Part shown: one piece after another, positions 3,084 to 22,893 of the stretch | How the letters are laid out: each line of letters starts with the position of its first letter | How positions within the stretch are numbered: position 1 is the first letter of the stretch | IMG/VR virus record: IMGVR_UViG_3300044613_000731 | Span: 1-22,912 of that record | Source: a virus | Direction: 5' to 3' (one strand) | DNA length: 22,912 nt | Notes under the pieces: generated by a model | The model's input: only the letters and a program-made list of their open reading frames with translations | Told to the model about the DNA's origin: nothing | Database searches by the model: none | Translations under genes and position numbers: made by a program

Positions 3084-3086
3084 CGG

Positions 3087-3116
3087 TTGCCCGCTTGCGG
3101 TTTGTGCGTGTAGAGT
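3087..3116 (+). promoter_or_regulatory. Possible promoter of the major tail protein gene
   Basis: TTGCCC (3087-3092) and TAGAGT (3111-3116) are 18 bases apart, each matching 4 of 6 positions of the -35 and -10 consensus. This lies at the start of the only sizeable gap in the neck-tail block, and a start near 3123 would give a leader of about 58 bases with a good Shine-Dalgarno (AGGAG at 3170-3174). A separate promoter is plausible for the most abundant tail protein. The match is moderate. Confidence 0.3.
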
Positions 3117-3122
3117 TATCGC

Positions 3123-3164
3123 ATCGGCTCAGCCGAGCAGAAGTAGTTCATCTCGATAGCCGAT
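3123..3164 (+). promoter_or_regulatory. Leader with two mutually exclusive stem options
   Basis: TCGGCTCAGCCGA (3124-3136) is a perfect dyad that folds as a 5-bp stem with loop TCA. A second copy of AGCCGAT at 3158-3164 can instead pair with ATCGGCT at 3123-3129 (7 bp). The two foldings share the 5' arm and exclude each other, and the second ends only a few bases before the Shine-Dalgarno of the major tail gene. Whether this is used for control is unknown. Confidence 0.35.
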
Positions 3165-3180
3165 AAGGCAGGAGCATCAA

Positions 3181-3603
3181 ATGGCAAAGCAAGTTCTCAC
3201 CAACGTAGTAGTCACCTTCGGTACTGCTAACACCGATATTTCTCAGTATGTAGGATCAATCACTTTGTCCACGACTGCTGCGGAAGTTGCGACTACAGCA
3301 ATGGGTTCTTCGGCTGTGACACGCATCCAAGGCTTGATCGATAACTCGGTCACACTTGAGCTGCATCAGGACTACCCAACGATCGAGAAGTTGTTCTACG
3401 ATGCGTTCGTTGCTGGTACTGCCGTGCCAATGACTGTGAAGCCAAACGGAACTGCTGCTGCTTCGTCTGCTAACCCACAGTATGCGTTCAATGCTCTTCC
3501 CGTTTCCTGGACACCCGTGGCAGGGGCGGTGGGCGACCTTGCAGTGGTCAGCATCACCTACCCGATCTCTGGTGCAATCACCAAGACTGGCACTGGCGCA
3601 TAG
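3181..3603 (+). CDS. Major tail protein (tail tube)
   Basis: A 140-residue beta-rich protein with few charged residues. It opens with VLTNVVVTFGTANTDISQYV, continues with a middle element TRIQGLIDNSVTLELHQDYP that resembles the strand-turn-strand of actinophage tail tube subunits, and ends in Thr/Gly/Ala-rich sequence. It sits just before the frameshifting chaperone pair, the invariant place for the tail tube gene in long-tailed phages. The start has a strong ribosome site (AGGAG, eight bases upstream). It would polymerise into the tube around the tape measure. The size is small for the family, which often carries an extra surface domain that is missing here. Confidence 0.75.
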   Translation: MAKQVLTNVVVTFGTANTDISQYVGSITLSTTAAEVATTAMGSSAVTRIQGLIDNSVTLELHQDYPTIEKLFYDAFVAGTAVPMTVKPNGTAAASSANPQYAFNALPVSWTPVAGAVGDLAVVSITYPISGAITKTGTGA

Positions 3604-4057: not shown

Positions 4058-4627
4058 ATGGCAATCAAACCAGTAGGTCGTGGAGGGCAAGTTAGTTTCC
4101 CTCCTGGTGGGAAGACTGTCGTTGAGATTGTTGGTATCACGCAGTTCATCCGTGAACTAGCCAAATCGGATGAACGATTCAAGAAAGAAGCCAACACGGC
4201 AGCCAAGGCCGTTGCTGAGTTGTTGATTGTGGCCGCCAAGTTTGAGGCAACAACAGTCACCCGAAGCAGTCAAGCAGCTGAAGTCATGAAGGGCATGAAG
4301 GCTAGGTCGTTCAATTCTTTACCTGCTGCGGTTCTGTCTGAGAAGAGTGCATTTGTTTCCAAGTCTCGCCCCAACCGTAAACGCAAGCGCAAGGTGACTC
4401 GGGGTGACGTGTTCTTTGGTGCGGAGTTCGGTGGCGGTAAGTTCGGCAAAGGAACCCCAACTGTCGCTGGGAGGGGTCGTAAGGGTGGGGGATACACAAG
4501 CCAGTTCTTGCGACATCGAGGCACGGCAGGATACTTCTTCTGGCCTGCGGTCACCAAGAACAAGGAGCGAATCGCCAAGGAATACCTAGATGCCATCACG
4601 AGGGTTCTGGATAAATTGGATACTTGA
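4058..4627 (+). CDS. Putative HK97 gp10-like tail completion protein
   Basis: A 189-residue basic protein. It opens with a helix (VGITQFIRELAKSDERFKKE), has a very basic centre (SRPNRKRKRKVTRGDV) and then GDVFFGAEFGGG ... TSQFLRHRGTAGYFFWPAV, followed by a C-terminal helix. The order helix, strand, 'GaEfGg', then 'q.l...G..Gyf..PA' resembles the HK97 gp10 family of neck/tail completion proteins. These usually lie before the major tail gene, so the position after the chaperones is unusual. The ATG is ten bases after the GT stop, with no strong ribosome site, which suggests coupled translation. Another minor tail role remains possible. Confidence 0.5.
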   Translation: MAIKPVGRGGQVSFPPGGKTVVEIVGITQFIRELAKSDERFKKEANTAAKAVAELLIVAAKFEATTVTRSSQAAEVMKGMKARSFNSLPAAVLSEKSAFVSKSRPNRKRKRKVTRGDVFFGAEFGGGKFGKGTPTVAGRGRKGGGYTSQFLRHRGTAGYFFWPAVTKNKERIAKEYLDAITRVLDKLDT

Positions 4628-4651
4628 CTTTTCCTGCCAGTTCGCTACCCT
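4624..4651 (+). promoter_or_regulatory. Possible promoter of the AEP-like gene
   Basis: TTGACT (4624-4629) is five of six bases of the -35 consensus; sixteen bases later comes TACCCT (4646-4651), a weak -10 of the TANNNT type common in actinobacteria. It overlaps the stop of the preceding gene and is followed by an exceptionally strong ribosome site (GGGAGGTGG). Weak on the -10 side. Confidence 0.3.
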
Positions 4652-4670
4652 CAAGAGTAGGGAGGTGGTC

Positions 4671-5375
4671 ATGGCGGTTCTGTTCAAGAATGTGAAGTCA
4701 ATCTATCCGAAGCCGTTGGCTTCGTCTTGGGAGCAGCTGCGTGAGTTGTTGGCGTTCCATGAGGAGAACGCTGTCAAGACTGATGGCGCGTTGTGGTCAC
4801 CGGTGGAGTACTACCCGAGTTCCACTCGTGGGAATCGCAATGTTCGGTTCATTGAGGCGTTGGTGGTGGACATGGACGGTGAGTCGTTCCGTGAGGCAAG
4901 GCTTGATGGGTTGGAGTGGTTTGCGTATTCAACTTATTCGCATCGTGATAATGATCCTCACTATCACTTGGTGTTGCCTTTGGCTGAGCGTGTGCCTGCT
5001 TCATTGTGGCGGGCTGTGTGGCAGGGGTTGCATGAGCGGTTGAATCTTGTTGGTGACCCACAGACGAAAGACCCTGCACGGTTGTTCTATCTTCCTCAGC
5101 ATGCACCTGGTGAGACCTTTGAGTTTCATGAGGGTCGTGGCGTGTTGTTGGATACTGATTTCAGTTGGGATGTTGTTGAGCAACCTCAGCCGATCAAGTC
5201 TCGGGAGGTGCGTCAGCCTCGTGCGCGTCGACATGAATCGTATTTATTCACTGAGCAGTTCTGGAATGAACCTGCGAAGGTTTGGTCGTGGACAGGTTTG
5301 GAAGGTTCTGAGAAGTGGAAGGCGGCTGCAACAGAGTTTCGTGCTTTGCGTCAGCGGTTGGAGGCAGGCGAGTAG
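4671..5375 (+). CDS. Stand-alone primase domain of the archaeo-eukaryotic (AEP) type
   Basis: The product has 234 residues from the ATG with a near-perfect ribosome site (GGGAGGTGG); an in-frame ATG at 4590 would intrude into the previous gene. The conserved order of AEP/primase-polymerase proteins is visible: a strand with D-x-D (ALVVDMDG, about residue 65), then YSTYSHRDNDPHYHLVLPL carrying the S-x-H motif, then a third acidic site in KDPARLFYLPQHAPG. These three blocks would bind two metals and the nucleotide. There is no helicase or zinc domain. It would make primers or extend DNA. Its place between tail genes, directly before the tape measure, is not explained by function; it looks like an independently expressed insert. 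A nuclease-like derivative of the fold is the main alternative. Confidence 0.65.
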   Translation: MAVLFKNVKSIYPKPLASSWEQLRELLAFHEENAVKTDGALWSPVEYYPSSTRGNRNVRFIEALVVDMDGESFREARLDGLEWFAYSTYSHRDNDPHYHLVLPLAERVPASLWRAVWQGLHERLNLVGDPQTKDPARLFYLPQHAPGETFEFHEGRGVLLDTDFSWDVVEQPQPIKSREVRQPRARRHESYLFTEQFWNEPAKVWSWTGLEGSEKWKAAATEFRALRQRLEAGE

Positions 5376-5384
5376 AATTGGCGC

Positions 5385-7565
5385 ATGGCTGGTGAGCGCA
5401 CGTTTGTTGTCAAGTTTGTTACCGATATTGGTGATGCGACTACTGGCATTGGAAAGATGGCTAAGAGTTTCTCTGGGTTGACTGGTCAACTAGAGAAGGG
5501 TGTTGGCTCGGCGTTGAAGAATCTTGTCCCGTCGTTTAGGACGATGGCGATTGCTGGTACTGCTGCGGCTGGTGCTGTGGCTGCGGCTTCGTTCAAGTTG
5601 GTGCAACAGGCATCAAATCTTGAGGAGTCGCAGTCGAAGGTGAACACGGTGTTCGGTGACTCGGCGTTTATTGTTGAGAACTTTGCGAAGACTTCAGCAA
5701 CGTCGTTCGGTATCACGAAGCAGGCTGCGTTGGAGGCTGCTGGTACGTTCGGCAACTTGATTCAGGCGTTTGGTATTGGTCAGGGTGAGGCTGCGACGAT
5801 GTCAACCACGTTGTTGCAGTTGGCTGCTGACTTGGCTTCGTTCAACAACACCGGCATTGAAGATGCCATTCAAGCATTGCGTTCAGGTTTGTCTGGTGAA
5901 ACAGAACCGTTGAAGAGATTTGGTGTTGCGATCAACGATGTTCGCTTGAAAGAAGAAGCAAGGACTCTGGGGTTGTATAGCGGCAAGGGTGCGCTTGACA
6001 TCACAGCCAAGACTCAAGCCGCCTATGCGTTGATTTTGAAAGATACCAATTTGGCTCAGGGTGACTTCGCTCGAACCTCGGAAGGTTTTGCCAACCAGAT
6101 GCGTATCTTGCAGGCTTCGTTGTCTGATGCTGCAACTGAGGTCGGCATGGTCTTGTTGCCTTACTTCAAAGAGTTTGTGAGTTTCATCAATGACAACATT
6201 GTTCCTGCAATCACAGCGTTCGCTGACAACCTTGGTGAGGAGGGTGTTGGTCGGGCGTTTGAGTTTGCGATTGCTGCAATGGGTGACTTCGGTATCAAAG
6301 CCATTGAGGTAATGAAAGGTGCGTACATTGCCACCCTTGAGTTCTTGCGCAGTTTGGCTGATGTCATTGAGAAGTTGGGTCAGGTCGGAGTTATTGCTAG
6401 TGCAGCGTCATTCAACGCTGTTGGTGCATTCAAGTCTCTTGCGGTTGGTGTAACGGCCAGCAACATCGGTGACCGTATTGACGAGCAACTTGCTGGCGCG
6501 GATCAACTGTTCCTGGATTTGGCTAACGGTGTGAGGTCGGCACGGTTGGAGTTGGATGCGTTGAAGTTTGCGAGCAACAGGACTACTGAACAGCAGGTTC
6601 GGAACGCGGAGCGTGTTGGCAAAGTCATTCGGACTGGTATCAAAGAGGAAGAGGACAAGGACAAGGCGACGACTGGTGCGGCTAAGGCTGTGGAAACTGC
6701 GAAGCAGAAGTTGGAGAAGTACACGGATGCGATGCGGGCTTCGACGAAAGCATCGAAGGCGTTTACGAATGCGCAGAAGGATTCAAAGAAAGCCAATGAG
6801 GCTAAGGCTCAGGCTGATGCTGATCTAGCCACAGCGGAAGCGAACTTGGCTCAGATCACTGCTGGGTTTGGTGCTGGTTCACCACAGGCGAAAGCAGCTG
6901 CGTTGGCTTTGGATCAGGCTCAGCGTGGGGTTGAGCGGGCTGGGTATCGGATTGAGCAGTCGACGTTCGCGGTAACCGATGCTGAGTTGGAGTTGGCGAA
7001 GGTTCGCAAAGACCCTGAGTCTTCTTTGCAAGCAATTCGTGAGGCTGAGATTGCGTTGGCTGAAGCGAAGTTGGCTTTGAAGGATGCGACTGATGATCAG
7101 ACTGATGCGACTGGTGAGTTGAAGGATCAGCAGCAGTTGTTGAATGAGGCTGTGTCTGGTGCGACTGATGGCAGTAAGGCTTATGAGGAGGCGTTGCTTG
7201 CGGTCAATGATGCGAAGAAGAAGCAGGCTGAGGCGAATGAGCGTGTGGCTGATTCTATTGAGCGAGAGGCTGAGGCTCAGGAGCGTTTGAATGATGCTGA
7301 GGAGAAGCGGGGTGAGTTGGCGAAGTTGTATCCGAAGATTGCAGCCAACAACCCGATGGCACCGTTTGCTGGTTCTGTCCCTTCGACGGTGACTGGGAAT
7401 GCTGGTGGTGCGACGTTTGCTGATAATCCTGGTCAGATGAACGTAACGATCAATGCTGGTTTGGGTGCTTCTGGTGTTCAGATTGGTCAGGAGTTGAACG
7501 ATTATTTGTCTGACTATTTGAGGTTGAACGGCGGGTCAATAGGAAACTTTGTCGGGGTTCGTTAG
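5385..7565 (+). CDS. Tape measure protein
   Basis: The 726-residue product is the longest in the window. It starts with a short basic beta/helix segment, has a hydrophobic stretch near residues 55-75 (IAGTAAAGAVAAASF) and a conserved early block (LEESQSKVNTVFGDSA, AAGTFGNLIQAFG, TGIEDAIQALRSGLSGETEP) that is typical of actinophage tape measures, followed by long Ala/Glu/Lys coiled-coil repeats at roughly 420-650 and a globular end. It fills the tail tube and sets tail length; at about 0.15 nm per residue, the usual scaling, it predicts a tail near 110 nm. The ribosome site is poor, so translation may be coupled to the preceding gene ten bases away. Confidence 0.92.
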   Translation: MAGERTFVVKFVTDIGDATTGIGKMAKSFSGLTGQLEKGVGSALKNLVPSFRTMAIAGTAAAGAVAAASFKLVQQASNLEESQSKVNTVFGDSAFIVENFAKTSATSFGITKQAALEAAGTFGNLIQAFGIGQGEAATMSTTLLQLAADLASFNNTGIEDAIQALRSGLSGETEPLKRFGVAINDVRLKEEARTLGLYSGKGALDITAKTQAAYALILKDTNLAQGDFARTSEGFANQMRILQASLSDAATEVGMVLLPYFKEFVSFINDNIVPAITAFADNLGEEGVGRAFEFAIAAMGDFGIKAIEVMKGAYIATLEFLRSLADVIEKLGQVGVIASAASFNAVGAFKSLAVGVTASNIGDRIDEQLAGADQLFLDLANGVRSARLELDALKFASNRTTEQQVRNAERVGKVIRTGIKEEEDKDKATTGAAKAVETAKQKLEKYTDAMRASTKASKAFTNAQKDSKKANEAKAQADADLATAEANLAQITAGFGAGSPQAKAAALALDQAQRGVERAGYRIEQSTFAVTDAELELAKVRKDPESSLQAIREAEIALAEAKLALKDATDDQTDATGELKDQQQLLNEAVSGATDGSKAYEEALLAVNDAKKKQAEANERVADSIEREAEAQERLNDAEEKRGELAKLYPKIAANNPMAPFAGSVPSTVTGNAGGATFADNPGQMNVTINAGLGASGVQIGQELNDYLSDYLRLNGGSIGNFVGVR

Positions 7566-12266: not shown

Positions 12267-12836
12267 ATGACCAAGATGCCTTGGCCTGTGGTGCCGATCA
12301 AGTTCTGTGAACATCTCAAAGGCAAGAAGCCGTCCGAGATAACGACACCGATGTTGCGTCGACTGTCTTGTGGCGGAATGATGCACCATTGTGCAGCTCG
12401 TGCAGTTGAAGCAATGATTGCAGCAGCGAAGGCTGAAGGTGTCATCTTGAAACCGACAAGCAGTGGGGATACTTTCCGCAGCATCGAACAGCAACGAGCA
12501 GGGTTCGTGACTCGCTACCAGAAGGCACCGTTGGCTGGGGCTACGACACGCACTTGGAACGGTGAGAAGTGGTATCTCAAGCCAGGCAACGCCCCACTCG
12601 CTGCACCTAACGACGACCCCAAGACTTGCTCACGTCACATGCTTGGTATCGCCATTGACATTGCGAATACCGGCAACAAGAAAGTGATGGACTGGCTGCT
12701 TGCCAACGAGCAACGCTTCGGTTTCAGCCATGAGGTTGTGGAGATGCCTGGTGCTGAGCCTTGGCACATTCGATTCACTGAAGGTCAAGCGATGCCTCAA
12801 GCCGTCCTCGATTACGAAGCGACACTTCCCGCATGA
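12267..12836 (+). CDS. Endolysin, M15 family zinc peptidase
   Basis: The 189-residue protein carries the M15 (VanY/L-alanyl-D-glutamate peptidase) signature: CSRHMLGIAIDIA with zinc ligands His124 and Asp131, and EPWHIRF with catalytic Glu164 and ligand His167. It would cleave peptide cross-links or stems in host peptidoglycan. No signal peptide is present, so release depends on the holin. The N-terminal 60 residues (with Cys-rich RRLSCGGMMHHCAARAVEAM) do not resemble a standard wall-binding domain. It lies behind the two small membrane genes and overlaps the next gene by ATGA. Confidence 0.88.
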   Translation: MTKMPWPVVPIKFCEHLKGKKPSEITTPMLRRLSCGGMMHHCAARAVEAMIAAAKAEGVILKPTSSGDTFRSIEQQRAGFVTRYQKAPLAGATTRTWNGEKWYLKPGNAPLAAPNDDPKTCSRHMLGIAIDIANTGNKKVMDWLLANEQRFGFSHEVVEMPGAEPWHIRFTEGQAMPQAVLDYEATLPA

Positions 12837-18197: not shown

Positions 18198-18212
18198 ACC
18201 GATAACCCGATC

Positions 18213-18259
18213 TGCTCGGCGGGATACCACCACCCCCAACACCGGTATCCCGTCGAGCA
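18213..18259 (+). other. Sixteen-base-pair hairpin, possible terminator or processing site
   Basis: TGCTCGGCGGGATACC (18213-18228) pairs along its whole length with GGTATCCCGTCGAGCA (18244-18259), with a single G-U and a 15-base A/C-only loop. It fills the 82-base gap between the SSB-like gene and the small-gene cluster. No T-run follows, but actinobacteria often use terminators without one. Other possible uses are RNA processing or a DNA site; the sequence alone does not decide. No gene is seen in the gap. Confidence 0.7.
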
Positions 18260-18279
18260 ACTATCCAAGAAAGACCAAG

Positions 18280-18414
18280 ATGACGAAACAAGACATCATC
18301 AACGCCATCCAATTCCTAGAACGCAGTTGGGTCGGACAAGGTGACCAAGAACGACTATTCAAAACCATCGAAGCACTCAAACTAGAACTAGCCAAAAGGA
18401 GCAAACCCAAATGA
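18280..18414 (+). CDS. 44-residue helical protein of unknown role
   Basis: A short protein, MTKQDIINAIQFLERSWVGQ followed by GDQERLFKTIEALKLELAKR. The ATG follows the hairpin gap; the frame upstream is open but runs into the preceding gene. It is coupled to the next gene by ATGA. The layout of two amphipathic helices with a basic end is plain; I do not recognise it. It is the first of a run of very short genes with overlapping ends. Confidence 0.6.
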   Translation: MTKQDIINAIQFLERSWVGQGDQERLFKTIEALKLELAKRSKPK

Positions 18415-18623
18415 ACGACCTAGCCCTACAATTTGCTGAACTGGAAATCCGTGTATCGGAACTCCACACAGCACTTGAACGTGTCACCGAAGAACGCAAC
18501 AACTACCGAGACACCGCCGACTCACTCTTCAAAGAACTTGAAGCCTGCAAAGTGACACTCACCCAAGCCCACTCAGACATCTCACGCCTCCGCGTCTACC
18601 TAGCCCAAGGAGCAGAACTGTGA
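18411..18623 (+). CDS. 70-residue coiled-coil protein
   Basis: The sequence (FAELEIRVSELHTALERVTE, then LFKELEACKVTLTQAHSDIS) is a nearly continuous heptad-type helix, so a coiled coil is very likely. AAAAGGAG lies nine bases upstream of the ATG. It is linked to its neighbours by overlaps (ATGA before, GTGA after). A self- or cross-assembling small protein is indicated; the partner may be the next gene product, which is also a coiled coil. Confidence 0.65.
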   Translation: MNDLALQFAELEIRVSELHTALERVTEERNNYRDTADSLFKELEACKVTLTQAHSDISRLRVYLAQGAEL

Positions 18624-18802
18624 CCCGATATCAGCAAGGCACCTATGGCCTGTCACAAGACCTACGCGAATCACGTCGCATGGGCATGGAACTGTCACGC
18701 GAACTTGCAGCCGTCAAAAAAGAACTAGAAGAAACCAAATACGAGTTGAACCTTCTGCGAGAAATCAACAAACATTTGGAGGCTTACGATGACCGCAGCT
18801 GA
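18620..18802 (+). CDS. 60-residue coiled-coil protein, GTG start
   Basis: Starts at GTG overlapping the previous stop (GTGA), with AAGGAG upstream. After a short N-terminus (TRYQQGTYGLSQDLRESRRM) it is a charged helix (LSRELAAVKKELEETKYELN) typical of coiled coils. With the preceding gene it forms a pair of adjacent, coupled coiled-coil proteins. It overlaps the next gene by 14 bases. Unknown function. Confidence 0.6.
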   Translation: MTRYQQGTYGLSQDLRESRRMGMELSRELAAVKKELEETKYELNLLREINKHLEAYDDRS

Positions 18803-19028
18803 CACATTCCCAGACGCGCCCTACACCGTCACCGTTCTCGCAGATCGAGACGGCGAAGCCCGCTGGGTAGGCAAAATCCAAAACTACGACATCACAGCAG
18901 CAGGCATCGCCGGAGGCATCCACCTCCTCGTCATGCTCGACTCAGACGGCCTCATTCGTGTCGCCACCAAACCTGGCTCAGCATGGGACTCAACCTGGTC
19001 ACCACCGATCCTGATGGAACGACGCTGA
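18789..19028 (+). CDS. 79-residue protein of unknown role
   Basis: A beta-rich small protein (YTVTVLADRDGEARWVGKIQ and AGGIHLLVMLDSDGLIRVAT) ending in a Trp/Pro-rich stretch. The ribosome site GGAGG precedes the ATG by six bases. The start overlaps the previous coiled-coil gene by 14 bases, and the stop overlaps the next ATG (TGATG). I recognise no family. Confidence 0.6.
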   Translation: MTAADTFPDAPYTVTVLADRDGEARWVGKIQNYDITAAGIAGGIHLLVMLDSDGLIRVATKPGSAWDSTWSPPILMERR

Positions 19029-19192
19029 TGGCTTGGATGAAGACAATGCAACAAGAATCCATCGACCACGAGTTCACCATTGCTGAACAGCGATACACCA
19101 TTGCGCTCCTAGAAGTGCAGGTGGCACGACTGACCGACACAGTCAACGAGCTGCATGGCATGTTGCATGCGTTACGAATGGATACCCAATGA
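19028..19192 (+). CDS. 54-residue helical protein of unknown role
   Basis: The ATG at 19028, which overlaps the previous stop, was chosen over an upstream in-frame ATG at 18983 that would intrude 45 bases into the previous gene. The product, MAWMKTMQQESIDHEFTIAE followed by a long helix with LLEVQVARLTDTVNELHGML, is another probable coiled coil. It overlaps the next ATG (ATGA). Function unknown. Confidence 0.5.
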   Translation: MAWMKTMQQESIDHEFTIAEQRYTIALLEVQVARLTDTVNELHGMLHALRMDTQ

Positions 19193-19374
19193 TTCTCCAA
19201 GCCAAATGTTTGAAGTGTCAGTCGTTGATCCGTCACGATCCGCAACGTGTCACAGGCTGCTTGTGTGATCCTGACGCACCAACATGGATTGCTATCACCC
19301 CAGAAGGTCGCATGATGGCAGGAAGCCACAGCGAATATCGGACAGCAAGCGAAGCCCATGACGACATTCGGTAG
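19189..19374 (+). CDS. 61-residue cysteine-containing protein, possible zinc binder
   Basis: The N-terminal half has CLKC at residues 7-10 and CLCD at 24-27 (four cysteines in a zinc-ribbon-like spacing), followed by PTWIAITPEGRMMAG and an acidic end. A small zinc ribbon is plausible. The start overlaps the preceding stop. Function not recognisable. Confidence 0.55.
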   Translation: MILQAKCLKCQSLIRHDPQRVTGCLCDPDAPTWIAITPEGRMMAGSHSEYRTASEAHDDIR

Positions 19375-19456
19375 ACGGAACAACCCATGCCCGTGCAGAC
19401 AGCCGATACCTGCTAAACCATTGTGCGGAGATCGAGGAGTGGAAGACGATGACTGA
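19358..19456 (+). CDS. Possible 32-residue cysteine-rich ORF
   Basis: An ATG at 19358 opens a frame to the TGA at 19454-19456 that spans the gap between two neighbouring genes, overlapping both (17 and 8 bases). The product is basic at first, then NPCPCRQPIPAKPLCG and an acidic end. Genes in this cluster overlap in just this way, and the spacing of cysteines hints at a partial zinc site. No strong ribosome site exists, so it may be chance. Confidence 0.35.
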   Translation: MTTFGRRNNPCPCRQPIPAKPLCGDRGVEDDD

Positions 19457-19673
19457 AGACCCAATCGCAGAATACATTGATGCCTGCACCGAAGGCATGT
19501 GCGATGCCTATGTTGTGATCGCAACAGTGCAACGTGCAGCAGGTCAACCATCATTCTGGATTACAACCCTGAAGAACCAAACCGCGTCAACTACACTCGG
19601 ACTCCTCGAATCGGCTAGTGCTGCGGAGAAATACCGTATCGCTAGATCGTTTGAGATAACAGAAGACGACTAA
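19449..19673 (+). CDS. 74-residue protein of unknown role
   Basis: The protein is acidic and helical with a middle WITTLKNQTASTTLGLLESA. GAGGAG stands nine bases before the ATG. It stands in the short-gene cluster with 19 bases to the next gene. The order AEYIDACTEGMCDAYVVIAT near the start resembles no family that I know. Confidence 0.55.
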   Translation: MTEDPIAEYIDACTEGMCDAYVVIATVQRAAGQPSFWITTLKNQTASTTLGLLESASAAEKYRIARSFEITEDD

Positions 19674-19692
19674 CAAAAAGGAACCCTGCGAA

Positions 19693-20525: not shown

Positions 20526-20905
20526 ACGAGTACCGATGCAGGAAATGCAACATCAACTGTGTAGGAGATTGGGTTCAGCGTCTTTGCAACCGTAACGTCA
20601 CACATCTCTACCGTCGCTGCACCAACTGCGATGGCAGAACCCAGTTCATCTCGATGAGCGAATGGGAGTTCATGGGTCAAAGCATTGATGAAGTCATTGA
20701 TGAACGATGCCAACTCTGTCTCGGTCAAGGATGCCCACGATGCGAAGTGAAACCATGCGAAGTCAAATGCTGCACCTCACCTCACAATCTTGTTGAAACA
20801 CATCACTGGGCACCGAAACGAAAGTTCAAACTAGATGCAGACCTCTGGCCAACATCTCGACTCTGTAAATATCACCACGACGAATGGCACAAGGTAATTG
20901 GATGA
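20522..20905 (+). CDS. HNH-type zinc-rich endonuclease
   Basis: The 127-residue protein has several cysteine pairs (C6/C9, C33/C36, C63/C66, C71/C74, then C79, C83 and C84) in the N-terminal two thirds, and a C-terminal HNH-type core: ETHHWAPKRKFKLDADLWPT, then SRLCKYHHDEWHK. The HH pair at 94-95 and the closing C115, H118, H119, H123 fit the beta-beta-alpha metal fold of HNH proteins in actinophages. It would nick or cut DNA, or bind it. It overlaps the primase-helicase start (ATGA), so both are likely to be made together. Confidence 0.7.
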   Translation: MNEYRCRKCNINCVGDWVQRLCNRNVTHLYRRCTNCDGRTQFISMSEWEFMGQSIDEVIDERCQLCLGQGCPRCEVKPCEVKCCTSPHNLVETHHWAPKRKFKLDADLWPTSRLCKYHHDEWHKVIG

Positions 20906-22893
20906 ACACACTAGACATCGCGCTCAGCTACGCCCAGAAGGGCATCAGGGTCATCCCTATCAAACCTGGACACAAATACCCTGGCATCGAAGCCTGGCAA
21001 ACGAAAGCCACCACAGACGTTGACACCATCAAGGCTTGGTGGGGTGGGGAGTACGCCACGTTTGGTATCGGTATTGCGACAGGGCGGACACAGCACGGGC
21101 AGGTGTTTGTGGTGGATGTGGATGATCGTGAGCAGTACCGAGGCTCAGACACGCTCCACGACCTGGAAGAACGGTACGGCAAGTTGCCTGACACCGTTGA
21201 GGCAATCACTGGCACTGGTGGTCGTCACCTGTACTTCTATGCACCAGTCGAGATTAGAAACGACGCAGGCTCACGGCTGGGTGTCGGGCTAGACATTCGT
21301 GGTGAAGGCGGGCAAGTCTTAGCCCACCCAACCCTGCACCCGAACGGCAAACGCTACGAATGGGAAGACGGCCACTCACCCTCAGACAGGAAGCCCGCAG
21401 ACGCACCACAATGGCTCCTAACGCTCCTCACCAGCCAACCAGCAATGGTCAAGCCCAAAGACGTATCAGACACCTTCCTGAACGATCCAACGACCCCATC
21501 AGCCCGATACAACGCACAAACCACATGGGAAGACCTACTCACCCGAGACGGCTGGACACTGGCAAAGACCGACCGACACGGTGAACAACACTGGGTTCGA
21601 CCAGGCAAAGACCCACGAGACGGAACGTCAGCCACCATCGGCCACAACGGCAATGACGCACTCATCGTCTTCACCTCCAGCATCCCCTGGCTACCAGAAG
21701 GCGGATACAACCGCTTCGGCTACATGGCCGCCCGAGACCACAACGGCAACTGGAAACAAGCAGCCACAGCCTACCTAGCCACCCCAAACGGCCAAGCCGA
21801 ACCACTACCACCCATCCCCACCGGCGACGAAATGCTTGGCATGCTTGTCAACTGGAAAGAGTTCTGGACACAAGAACACACCACAGAAGACTGGATATGC
21901 AAACCACTCATCGCCCGAGGCAGACAGACCGCCATCTTCGCTGGAGCCAAGACAGGCAAGTCATGGCTCACCTTGAATGCTGTAGCAGCTCTTGCCACAG
22001 GCAAACCGATCTTCGGCCAAGCAGCACAACCACCAGTCAACTGTCTCTATCTCGACTACGAAATGATTGAATCCGATCTCTACGAACGCTTAGAACAATT
22101 CGGCTACACAGAAGACGACGACCTATCCCACTTCCACTACGCCATCATTCCCTCACTGCCACCACTCAACACACCAGAAGGAGCATCAGCCTTGATGCAC
22201 CTCATCAGGCTGGTCAAGGCTGAGGTTGTCGTGATTGACACCACAGGACGTGCCATCGACGGTGAAGAGAACTCAGCAGACTCCTACCGTGAGTTTGCCC
22301 GCACCACAGGCCTAGCCCTCAAGCGTGAAGGCGTAGCATGTGTGCGCACCGACCACGCAGGCAAGAACGCCAAGTTAGGTCAACGAGGGTCATCAGCCAA
22401 GAACGACGACGTGGACATCGTCTTCCAACTATCCAAGACAGATGACGGCCTAAGACTCAAACGCACCCACACCCGTATCGGCTGGGTACCAGACACCATC
22501 GACCTCATCGTGGAAGACTTCGATGACACCATCACCATCAGACTCAAGACCAAAGAACGCACAGGCTTCACCAGCCAAGAGATCGCACTAGCCAAACGCC
22601 TAGACGAACTCGGCTACCCCAAAGAACTAGGAACCAACGAAATCATCCGGCAAGCCAAAGCCCAAGGCATCACACTCGCCCGCAAAACCACAATCTCCCG
22701 AGCCGTCCAAGCCCGCCAAATGCCAACCCCCGACCCCCTCAACACGGGAACCACCCTCGGGAACCACTTCACAGAACCCAACGGGTACAAGGGAACCAGT
22801 GTGTGTAACGTAGTTACACCACAGTTCCGTACTGAGCCTGACCACGAACAATCAAATCCCGATCACAACATCATGCCCAACGACCTCTGGTAA
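20902..22893 (+). CDS. Primase-polymerase fused to a RecA-type helicase
   Basis: A 663-residue replication protein. Residues 1-175 are a PrimPol (AEP) domain: VIPIKPGHKYPG, FVVDVDD (Asp72, Asp74), GTGGRHLYFYAP (His109) and GVGLDIRGEGGQVLAHP (Asp131). A middle part at 200-295 (with the phrase WVRPGKDPRDGTSATIG) is common between these domains in actinophages. Residues 335-510 are a RecA-like ATPase with Walker A GAKTGKS (348-354), LYLDYEM, Walker B VVVID (442-446) and TDHAGK. The end (RKTTISRAVQARQ) looks like a winged helix. It would prime and unwind DNA for phage replication. The ATG at 20902 was chosen for its overlap with the HNH stop and for AAGG upstream. Confidence 0.9.
   Translation: MNTLDIALSYAQKGIRVIPIKPGHKYPGIEAWQTKATTDVDTIKAWWGGEYATFGIGIATGRTQHGQVFVVDVDDREQYRGSDTLHDLEERYGKLPDTVEAITGTGGRHLYFYAPVEIRNDAGSRLGVGLDIRGEGGQVLAHPTLHPNGKRYEWEDGHSPSDRKPADAPQWLLTLLTSQPAMVKPKDVSDTFLNDPTTPSARYNAQTTWEDLLTRDGWTLAKTDRHGEQHWVRPGKDPRDGTSATIGHNGNDALIVFTSSIPWLPEGGYNRFGYMAARDHNGNWKQAATAYLATPNGQAEPLPPIPTGDEMLGMLVNWKEFWTQEHTTEDWICKPLIARGRQTAIFAGAKTGKSWLTLNAVAALATGKPIFGQAAQPPVNCLYLDYEMIESDLYERLEQFGYTEDDDLSHFHYAIIPSLPPLNTPEGASALMHLIRLVKAEVVVIDTTGRAIDGEENSADSYREFARTTGLALKREGVACVRTDHAGKNAKLGQRGSSAKNDDVDIVFQLSKTDDGLRLKRTHTRIGWVPDTIDLIVEDFDDTITIRLKTKERTGFTSQEIALAKRLDELGYPKELGTNEIIRQAKAQGITLARKTTISRAVQARQMPTPDPLNTGTTLGNHFTEPNGYKGTSVCNVVTPQFRTEPDHEQSNPDHNIMPNDLW
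22746..22819 (+). repeat. Three GGGAACCA repeats followed by a 17-base dyad
   Basis: GGGAACCA occurs at 22746, 22759 and 22791, and then GTGTAAC-GTA-GTTACAC (22803-22819), a perfect dyad of 7-base arms. All lie in the C-terminal tail of the primase-helicase gene, in a region that encodes no recognisable fold. The combination looks like a protein-binding site or replication-origin element, but could be chance plus codon usage. Confidence 0.4.

Follow-up and report, generated by a model that had tools for sequence, protein, structure and literature searches.

The stretch of viral DNA analyzed here (IMG/VR record IMGVR_UViG_3300044613_000731, positions 1 to 22,912; hereafter the window, 22,912 nucleotides in length) carries a gene that resembles those of DNA primases among its tail genes. 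This raises the question of what such an enzyme does in the phage, and whether its placement in a tail operon says anything about its function.

The gene at 4671-5375 and its product

A sequence-only reading of the window had described a 234-residue open reading frame at 4671-5375, lying between a gp10-like gene and the tape measure gene, preceded by a strong ribosome site and encoding a primase-like protein without a helicase. The open reading frame and its coordinates were confirmed, as was its position (in 93 distinct loci); GGGAGG was found 5 nt from the start codon, and Pfam and PHROG searches found no helicase. The features to which we refer below, all on the plus strand, are as follows.

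4058-4627, +, upstream tail-module gene without a family match (gp10-like in the sequence-only reading)
4624-4651, +, predicted promoter of the AEP gene: TTGACT (4624-4629), 16-nt spacer, TACCCT (4646-4651)
4660-4665, +, Shine-Dalgarno GGGAGG, 5 nt before the ATG; GGGAGG or GGAGG in relatives
4671-5375, +, predicted stand-alone AEP primase-polymerase gene; ATG at 4671, stop at 5375, 234 aa
4671-5165, +, predicted AEP catalytic domain, residues 1-165, from pLDDT blocks and the PDB match 6zp9
4869-4877, +, motif I, D67-M-D69, its two Asp invariant in 71 sequences
4929-4937, +, motif II, S87-T88-Y89, from alignments; Tyr where many AEPs have His
5055-5057, +, motif III, D129, invariant in the 71-sequence alignment
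5079-5081, +, motif IV, R137, invariant in the same alignment; fits the Rh motif of PMC5862659
5166-5372, +, flexible basic linker and C-terminal helix, residues 166-234, from AlphaFold pLDDT
5373-5378, +, TAGAAT (AEP stop codon plus AAT), candidate leaderless promoter -10, in 70 of 73 distinct junctions
5385-7565, +, tape measure protein gene, the downstream neighbour (phrog_7025, phrog_31409, tail length tape measure protein)
20884-22893, +, Prim-Pol domain fused to a RecA/DnaB-like ATPase (PF09250, 1.8e-43; AAA_25 PF13481, 8.3e-23)

Sequence comparison and structural modelling together indicate that the product of 4671-5375 is an archaeo-eukaryotic primase (AEP) domain protein. Over residues ~41-163 it matches the PHROG profiles phrog_9765 'DNA primase' (2.9e-16) and phrog_256 'DNA helicase' (2.1e-7), and in phages and plasmids its tblastn matches, at 22-32% identity, fell in the N-terminal portions of primases, helicases and VirE-type proteins. 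With the protein alone as query, Pfam and NCBIfam gave no match; PF09250 (Prim-Pol) was among the Pfam families not matched, so the protein falls outside PrimPol proper. A PDB sequence search and PADLOC returned either nothing or chance-level matches, and Pfam revealed no domain of PriCT, HTH or helicase type, the C-terminus consisting of a disordered linker and a helix.

To place the motifs we used an alignment of 71 sequences from four subfamilies in all, namely this tail-operon family and three distant ones (VirE-helicase-type, stand-alone C48C1-type and staphylococcal satellite-type). Identity between subfamilies is ~20%, and only R53, D67, D69, D129, R137 and P142 are invariant. The hhhDhD/E motif I of the AEP superfamily is present as D67 and D69 (retained in 109 of 110 distinct near homologues) and the hD of motif III as D129. 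The diagnostic His of motif II (SxH) is replaced, the protein reading S87-T88-Y89 at a position where AEP-helicase relatives read S-T-H. R137, downstream of motif III, corresponds to the motif IV Arg (Rh) that is a feature of the PrimPol-PV1 supergroup (Kazlauskas et al. 2018, PMC5862659). Because the motif II His varies in some AEP families, with His, Gln or Tyr found there in the PrimHYQ family (PMC5862659), the Tyr excludes neither activity nor membership of the AEP superfamily. We left the protein out of PrimHYQ because PriCT-1 and HTH were not found. In one homologue (contig L125, 5541-5549) the catalytic D-M-D is replaced by E-D-E (GAGGATGAAGAA in the contig), possibly a natural inactive variant or an assembly error.

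Consistent with these motifs, the AlphaFold model of the protein has an AEP-type fold. The model was computed from the 71-sequence alignment, the 25 near relatives alone having given a pLDDT of only 38, and its mean pLDDT is 79.1; block means are ~85-94 up to residue 160, fall to 58 at residues 161-170 and are low (disordered) over 166-194, with a helix at 213-232. The sole PDB match at E <= 0.001 in Foldseek was 6zp9_A, the AEP domain of S-2L PrimPol (9.7e-5, prob 1.00), and the weaker matches, among them the LigD polymerase domain of M. tuberculosis, AsfvPrimPol, CAPP and RepB', were nearly all AEPs. Among viral models the top match was A0A6J5S580, a 234-aa uncharacterized phage protein with 59% identity, followed by phage primase-helicases. 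In sequence positions, the spacing of motifs I and III (67/69 to 129) resembles that of S-2L (85/87 to 146).

The sequence-only reading had proposed a profile search and a structure prediction as checks; since the profile matches are to polymerase and primase families, as are the fold matches of the model, its AEP assignment survives. Its motif list needs correction: D-x-D holds (D67/D69), S-x-H is absent from the protein, which has S87-T88-Y89 there, and the motif III Asp is D129 of GDPQTKDPAR and not D134, while the Arg of DPAR, R137, is the motif IV residue. It had also suggested that the phage carries two unrelated priming systems, the second being a PrimPol-helicase at 20902, here the PrimPol-ATPase at 20884-22893. 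These are indeed two enzymes of different AEP families, with no detectable sequence similarity between the two proteins, but they are not unrelated, as both belong to the AEP superfamily. Of 12 long relatives, 9 carry the PrimPol-ATPase, and these are all nine of the resolvable genomes; judged by gene spacing, the remaining three contigs stop short of it.

Fixed position and conserved promoter-like elements

At least 347 IMG/VR stretches match the AEP gene. The best 80 were used, and independent locus searches by tape measure and by major tail protein gave the same picture. The order gp10-like gene, AEP gene, tape measure gene is found in 93 distinct loci (duplicates removed), in 90 of which the tape measure starts 9 nt past the AEP stop codon, and none of the related loci spanning the site in the AEP, tape-measure or major-tail-protein searches was found to be without the AEP gene. 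There are 110 distinct complete homologues. Identity among homologues ranges from 58 to 100%, and dN/dS values of 0.07-0.45 indicate that the gene is under purifying selection.

Among cultured phages the nearest relative is Pontimonas phage phiPsal1, which has a Microbacteriaceae host (neck 43%, tail-tube 34% identity). It shares the gene order, its tape measure gene directly abutting the preceding gene, and we found no AEP gene in it; nor does it have the PrimPol-ATPase, carrying RepO and a replisome organizer instead. No AEP was seen at the corresponding place in EBPR siphovirus 6 or Rhodococcus phage Shagrat, scans of GTDB genomes with short exact patterns gave no cellular or prophage relative of the gene, and a scan for relatives of henriette type found none. 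With phiPsal1 as single outgroup, the simplest reading is that the gene was gained in the ancestor of this phage group. From phiPsal1 and a WhiB-like gene, the hosts are probably actinobacteria.

Finding the same gene at the same position in related phages was a further check proposed with the sequence-only reading, which had called the gene a possible independently expressed insert. That idea is supported by the conserved promoter, by a second promoter-like element at the start of the tape measure gene and by the absence of the gene from phiPsal1. A recent or sporadic insertion was rejected: every related locus spanning the site has the gene, and its fixation throughout a large phage group argues that it is not recent.

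Several observations concern the surrounding genes. Pairwise mean identity is 48% for the tape measure and 73% for the adjoining AEP, making the tape measure far more variable, and the gp10-like gene is fairly variable. Across loci (4058-7565) tape-measure and AEP identities are nearly uncoupled (Spearman 0.21), which suggests recombination at their junction. Two glycosyltransferase genes (PF00535, PF04724) lie at 3-1381, just before the neck genes, and phiPsal1 has the like at the same place. A 189-aa protein encoded at 12267-12836, far from the tape measure gene, matches the tape-measure profile phrog_16823 (6e-31). A 1.5-kb stretch at 18198-19692 falls outside the gene list used and contains a minus-strand open reading frame (18952-19554) with no PHROG match; apart from it the genome is coded on the plus strand.

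A possible promoter of the gene's own had already been proposed, and the element at 4624-4651 proved to be conserved. TTGAC(T/A)-N16-TAnnnT is present in 89 of 89 distinct AEP upstream sequences from three clades, with -10 forms TACCCT, TACTGT and TAACCT that end 16-19 nt before the ATG. Among 51 distinct promoter 28-mers, TTGAC and positions T1, A2 and T6 of the -10 are invariant and most spacer positions vary, and the position of the element is constant even where the end of the upstream gene differs. The element thus bears the signature of a sigma-70-type promoter. Two other explanations of this region were rejected: a programmed frameshift joining the upstream gene to AEP (the in-frame extension upstream is not conserved, being anywhere between 4 and 54 codons long) and an operator palindrome over the -10 and Shine-Dalgarno (CTACCC...GGGTAG in some loci; the TACTGT and TAACCT variants come without a matching downstream change).

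At the other end of the gene, TAGAAT-N6-ATG (5373-5384), whose TAG is the AEP stop codon, stands at the start of the tape measure gene, for which no clear Shine-Dalgarno was seen. The arrangement resembles a leaderless promoter, a type common in actinobacteria, and the AEP gene may thus be bracketed by promoters on both sides. No terminator was called within 5300-5400, where the AEP gene meets its downstream neighbour. A conserved promoter-like element also precedes the major tail protein (region 3084-3183): TTGCCC-N18-TAGAGT lies at 3087-3116, with related forms in other clades, and the 5' leader of that gene contains the paired segments ATCGGCT/AGCCGAT, with a fold z-score of only -1.45. Because the major tail protein also has such an element, an internal promoter does not by itself prove that the timing of AEP expression differs.

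A proposed replication enzyme and its alternatives

We propose that the gene encodes an active stand-alone primase-polymerase that assists phage DNA replication and is transcribed independently of the tail operon, an account that we think has about an even chance of being right. The product would be a catalytically competent AEP core, followed by a basic, flexible tail and a helix at the C-terminus, carrying out two-metal nucleotidyl transfer at D67, D69 and D129. It would make or extend short primers, or fill gaps, on single-stranded template, in an accessory role in replication and in trans with the host replisome and the PrimPol-AAA ATPase. With a sigma-70-type host promoter of its own, the gene would be transcribed independently of late control, and its placement in the tail operon would be a matter of location, not function. 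We infer the enzymatic activity, the role in replication, the early or constitutive timing and the partnership with the PrimPol-ATPase.

We favour a role in replication because of the PHROG primase match, the AEP fold, the invariant catalytic residues, the purifying selection and the promoter present in all 89 upstream sequences. It is further favoured by the company that distant relatives keep, as large marine and Vibrio phages encode some of them as stand-alone enzymes next to genes for a DNA polymerase or helicase, while others are satellite primases or AEP-helicase fusions, and by the PrimPol-ATPase, which co-occurs wherever the contig reaches that gene whereas phiPsal1 lacks both. The isolated AEP domain of S-2L PrimPol retains DNA polymerase activity (PMC8065100), which also speaks for this role. 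Against it, the AEP gene is not near the replication module, its product showed no PriCT-like domain, and one of the 110 distinct homologues has E-D-E for D-M-D.

The strongest rival takes up the same biochemistry. As no PriCT-like domain was found, the product may act as a polymerase and not as a primase, and it could serve in repair or in gap filling and end processing, LigD-PolDom-like in use, without making primers; existing 3' ends would be extended, whether at gaps or at the ends of the genome, ahead of circularisation or packaging. We regard this as rather unlikely, though it ranks first among the alternatives because the bare S-2L core polymerizes and PriCT-2 is thought to help priming, the primase activity of S-2L PrimPol being undetectable in standard assays (PMC8065100). 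The bare core here, in which neither PriCT nor a zinc module was found, the LigD polymerase domain of M. tuberculosis among the weaker fold matches and the separate PrimPol-ATPase already available for priming are all consistent with such a use. However, the nearest sequence relatives are annotated as replicative primases or primase-helicases and not as repair polymerases, and no Ku or ligase partner was seen in the phiPsal1 record or in the scanned window genes.

That the gene lies between the same two tail genes in all 93 distinct loci, with the 9-nt gap to the tape measure fixed in 90 of them, would also suit a late role, in which the protein is made with the tail proteins, packaged and injected, and primes or repairs incoming DNA. 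Such a role had been raised in the sequence-only reading, and we found no positive evidence for it. The gene has its own host-type promoter, which argues weakly against purely late expression, co-transcription with the tape measure would be unnecessary given the promoter-like TAGAAT at its start, and the protein matches no structural-protein family; we consider this role improbable. More improbable again is that a whole phage group relocated an essential AEP polymerase to the tail block on account of a link between its action and virion morphogenesis or entry, the enzyme being loaded into the particle or acting on DNA during packaging or injection; to our knowledge, AEP chemistry linked in this way to the tail pathway has not been described.

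An accessory, moron-like gene using AEP chemistry for host takeover, superinfection exclusion or anti-defence would fit the cassette anatomy, with its own promoter (89 of 89), its site between tail genes and its absence from phiPsal1. We hold this to be as improbable as a virion role, since morons are typically variable in presence while the AEP gene occurs in every related locus spanning the site, no terminator was called before the tape measure and PADLOC gave no match for the protein; the anti-defence role that had been suggested earlier likewise gained no positive evidence. Finally, the tail-operon location and the homologue with an altered motif I might suggest that the AEP fold now serves, without catalysis, in tail assembly or regulation, which is highly improbable as all catalytic residues are kept in 109 of 110 distinct homologues and in far relatives.

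The proposed replication enzyme provides a functional hypothesis for an unannotated core gene of a widespread group of uncultured aquatic phages with hundreds of matching IMG/VR stretches. A minimal AEP, with a ~165-residue core and no PriCT or helicase found, lets one ask what a bare core does in vivo, and two AEP enzymes in one genome make a division of labour directly testable. The enzyme type is already known; what is unusual is its stripped-down form and the fact that a replication-type enzyme, with an invariant promoter of its own, keeps a single place within a structural operon. A limited literature search found no report of an AEP gene at this tail-operon position.

Comparison with known systems

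Phage morons likewise have their own promoter inside a late operon, but the AEP gene is fixed and not sporadic, has no terminator that we could find and encodes a replication-type enzyme. At the level of the protein, the closest solved fold to the predicted one is the AEP of cyanophage S-2L PrimPol (PDB 6ZP9), in which a similarly spaced acidic triad (E85, D87, D146) corresponds to D67, D69 and D129. In S-2L the AEP domain is followed by PriCT-2 and a VirE-type helicase-like domain, and the protein is described as its phage's sole possible polymerase, whereas the tail-operon AEP ends after the core and a short tail; identity between the two is only 11%. With PrimPol-PV1 and PrimHYQ (PMC5862659) it shares the DxD of motif I, the motif III Asp, the motif IV Arg and the lack of a helicase, and PrimHYQ tolerates Tyr at the motif II His position. 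PrimHYQ members are reported with PriCT-1 and HTH, which were not found here, and the likeness to PrimPol-PV1 is one of motifs.

A member of the same protein family has already been deposited: A0A6J5S580 (BFVD, uncultured Caudovirales phage), also of 234 aa and 59% identical, is an uncharacterized protein without an assigned function. Large marine and Vibrio phages (L230 and L396 in our set) have stand-alone AEP primases next to DNA polymerase or clamp/helicase genes. Phage C48C1 and Vibrio phage henriette 12B8 each have a separate AEP gene of ~310 aa, without a helicase domain and with an alignable core; their genes adjoin DNA polymerase or clamp/helicase genes, whereas the AEP described here is shorter and is found in a tail operon.
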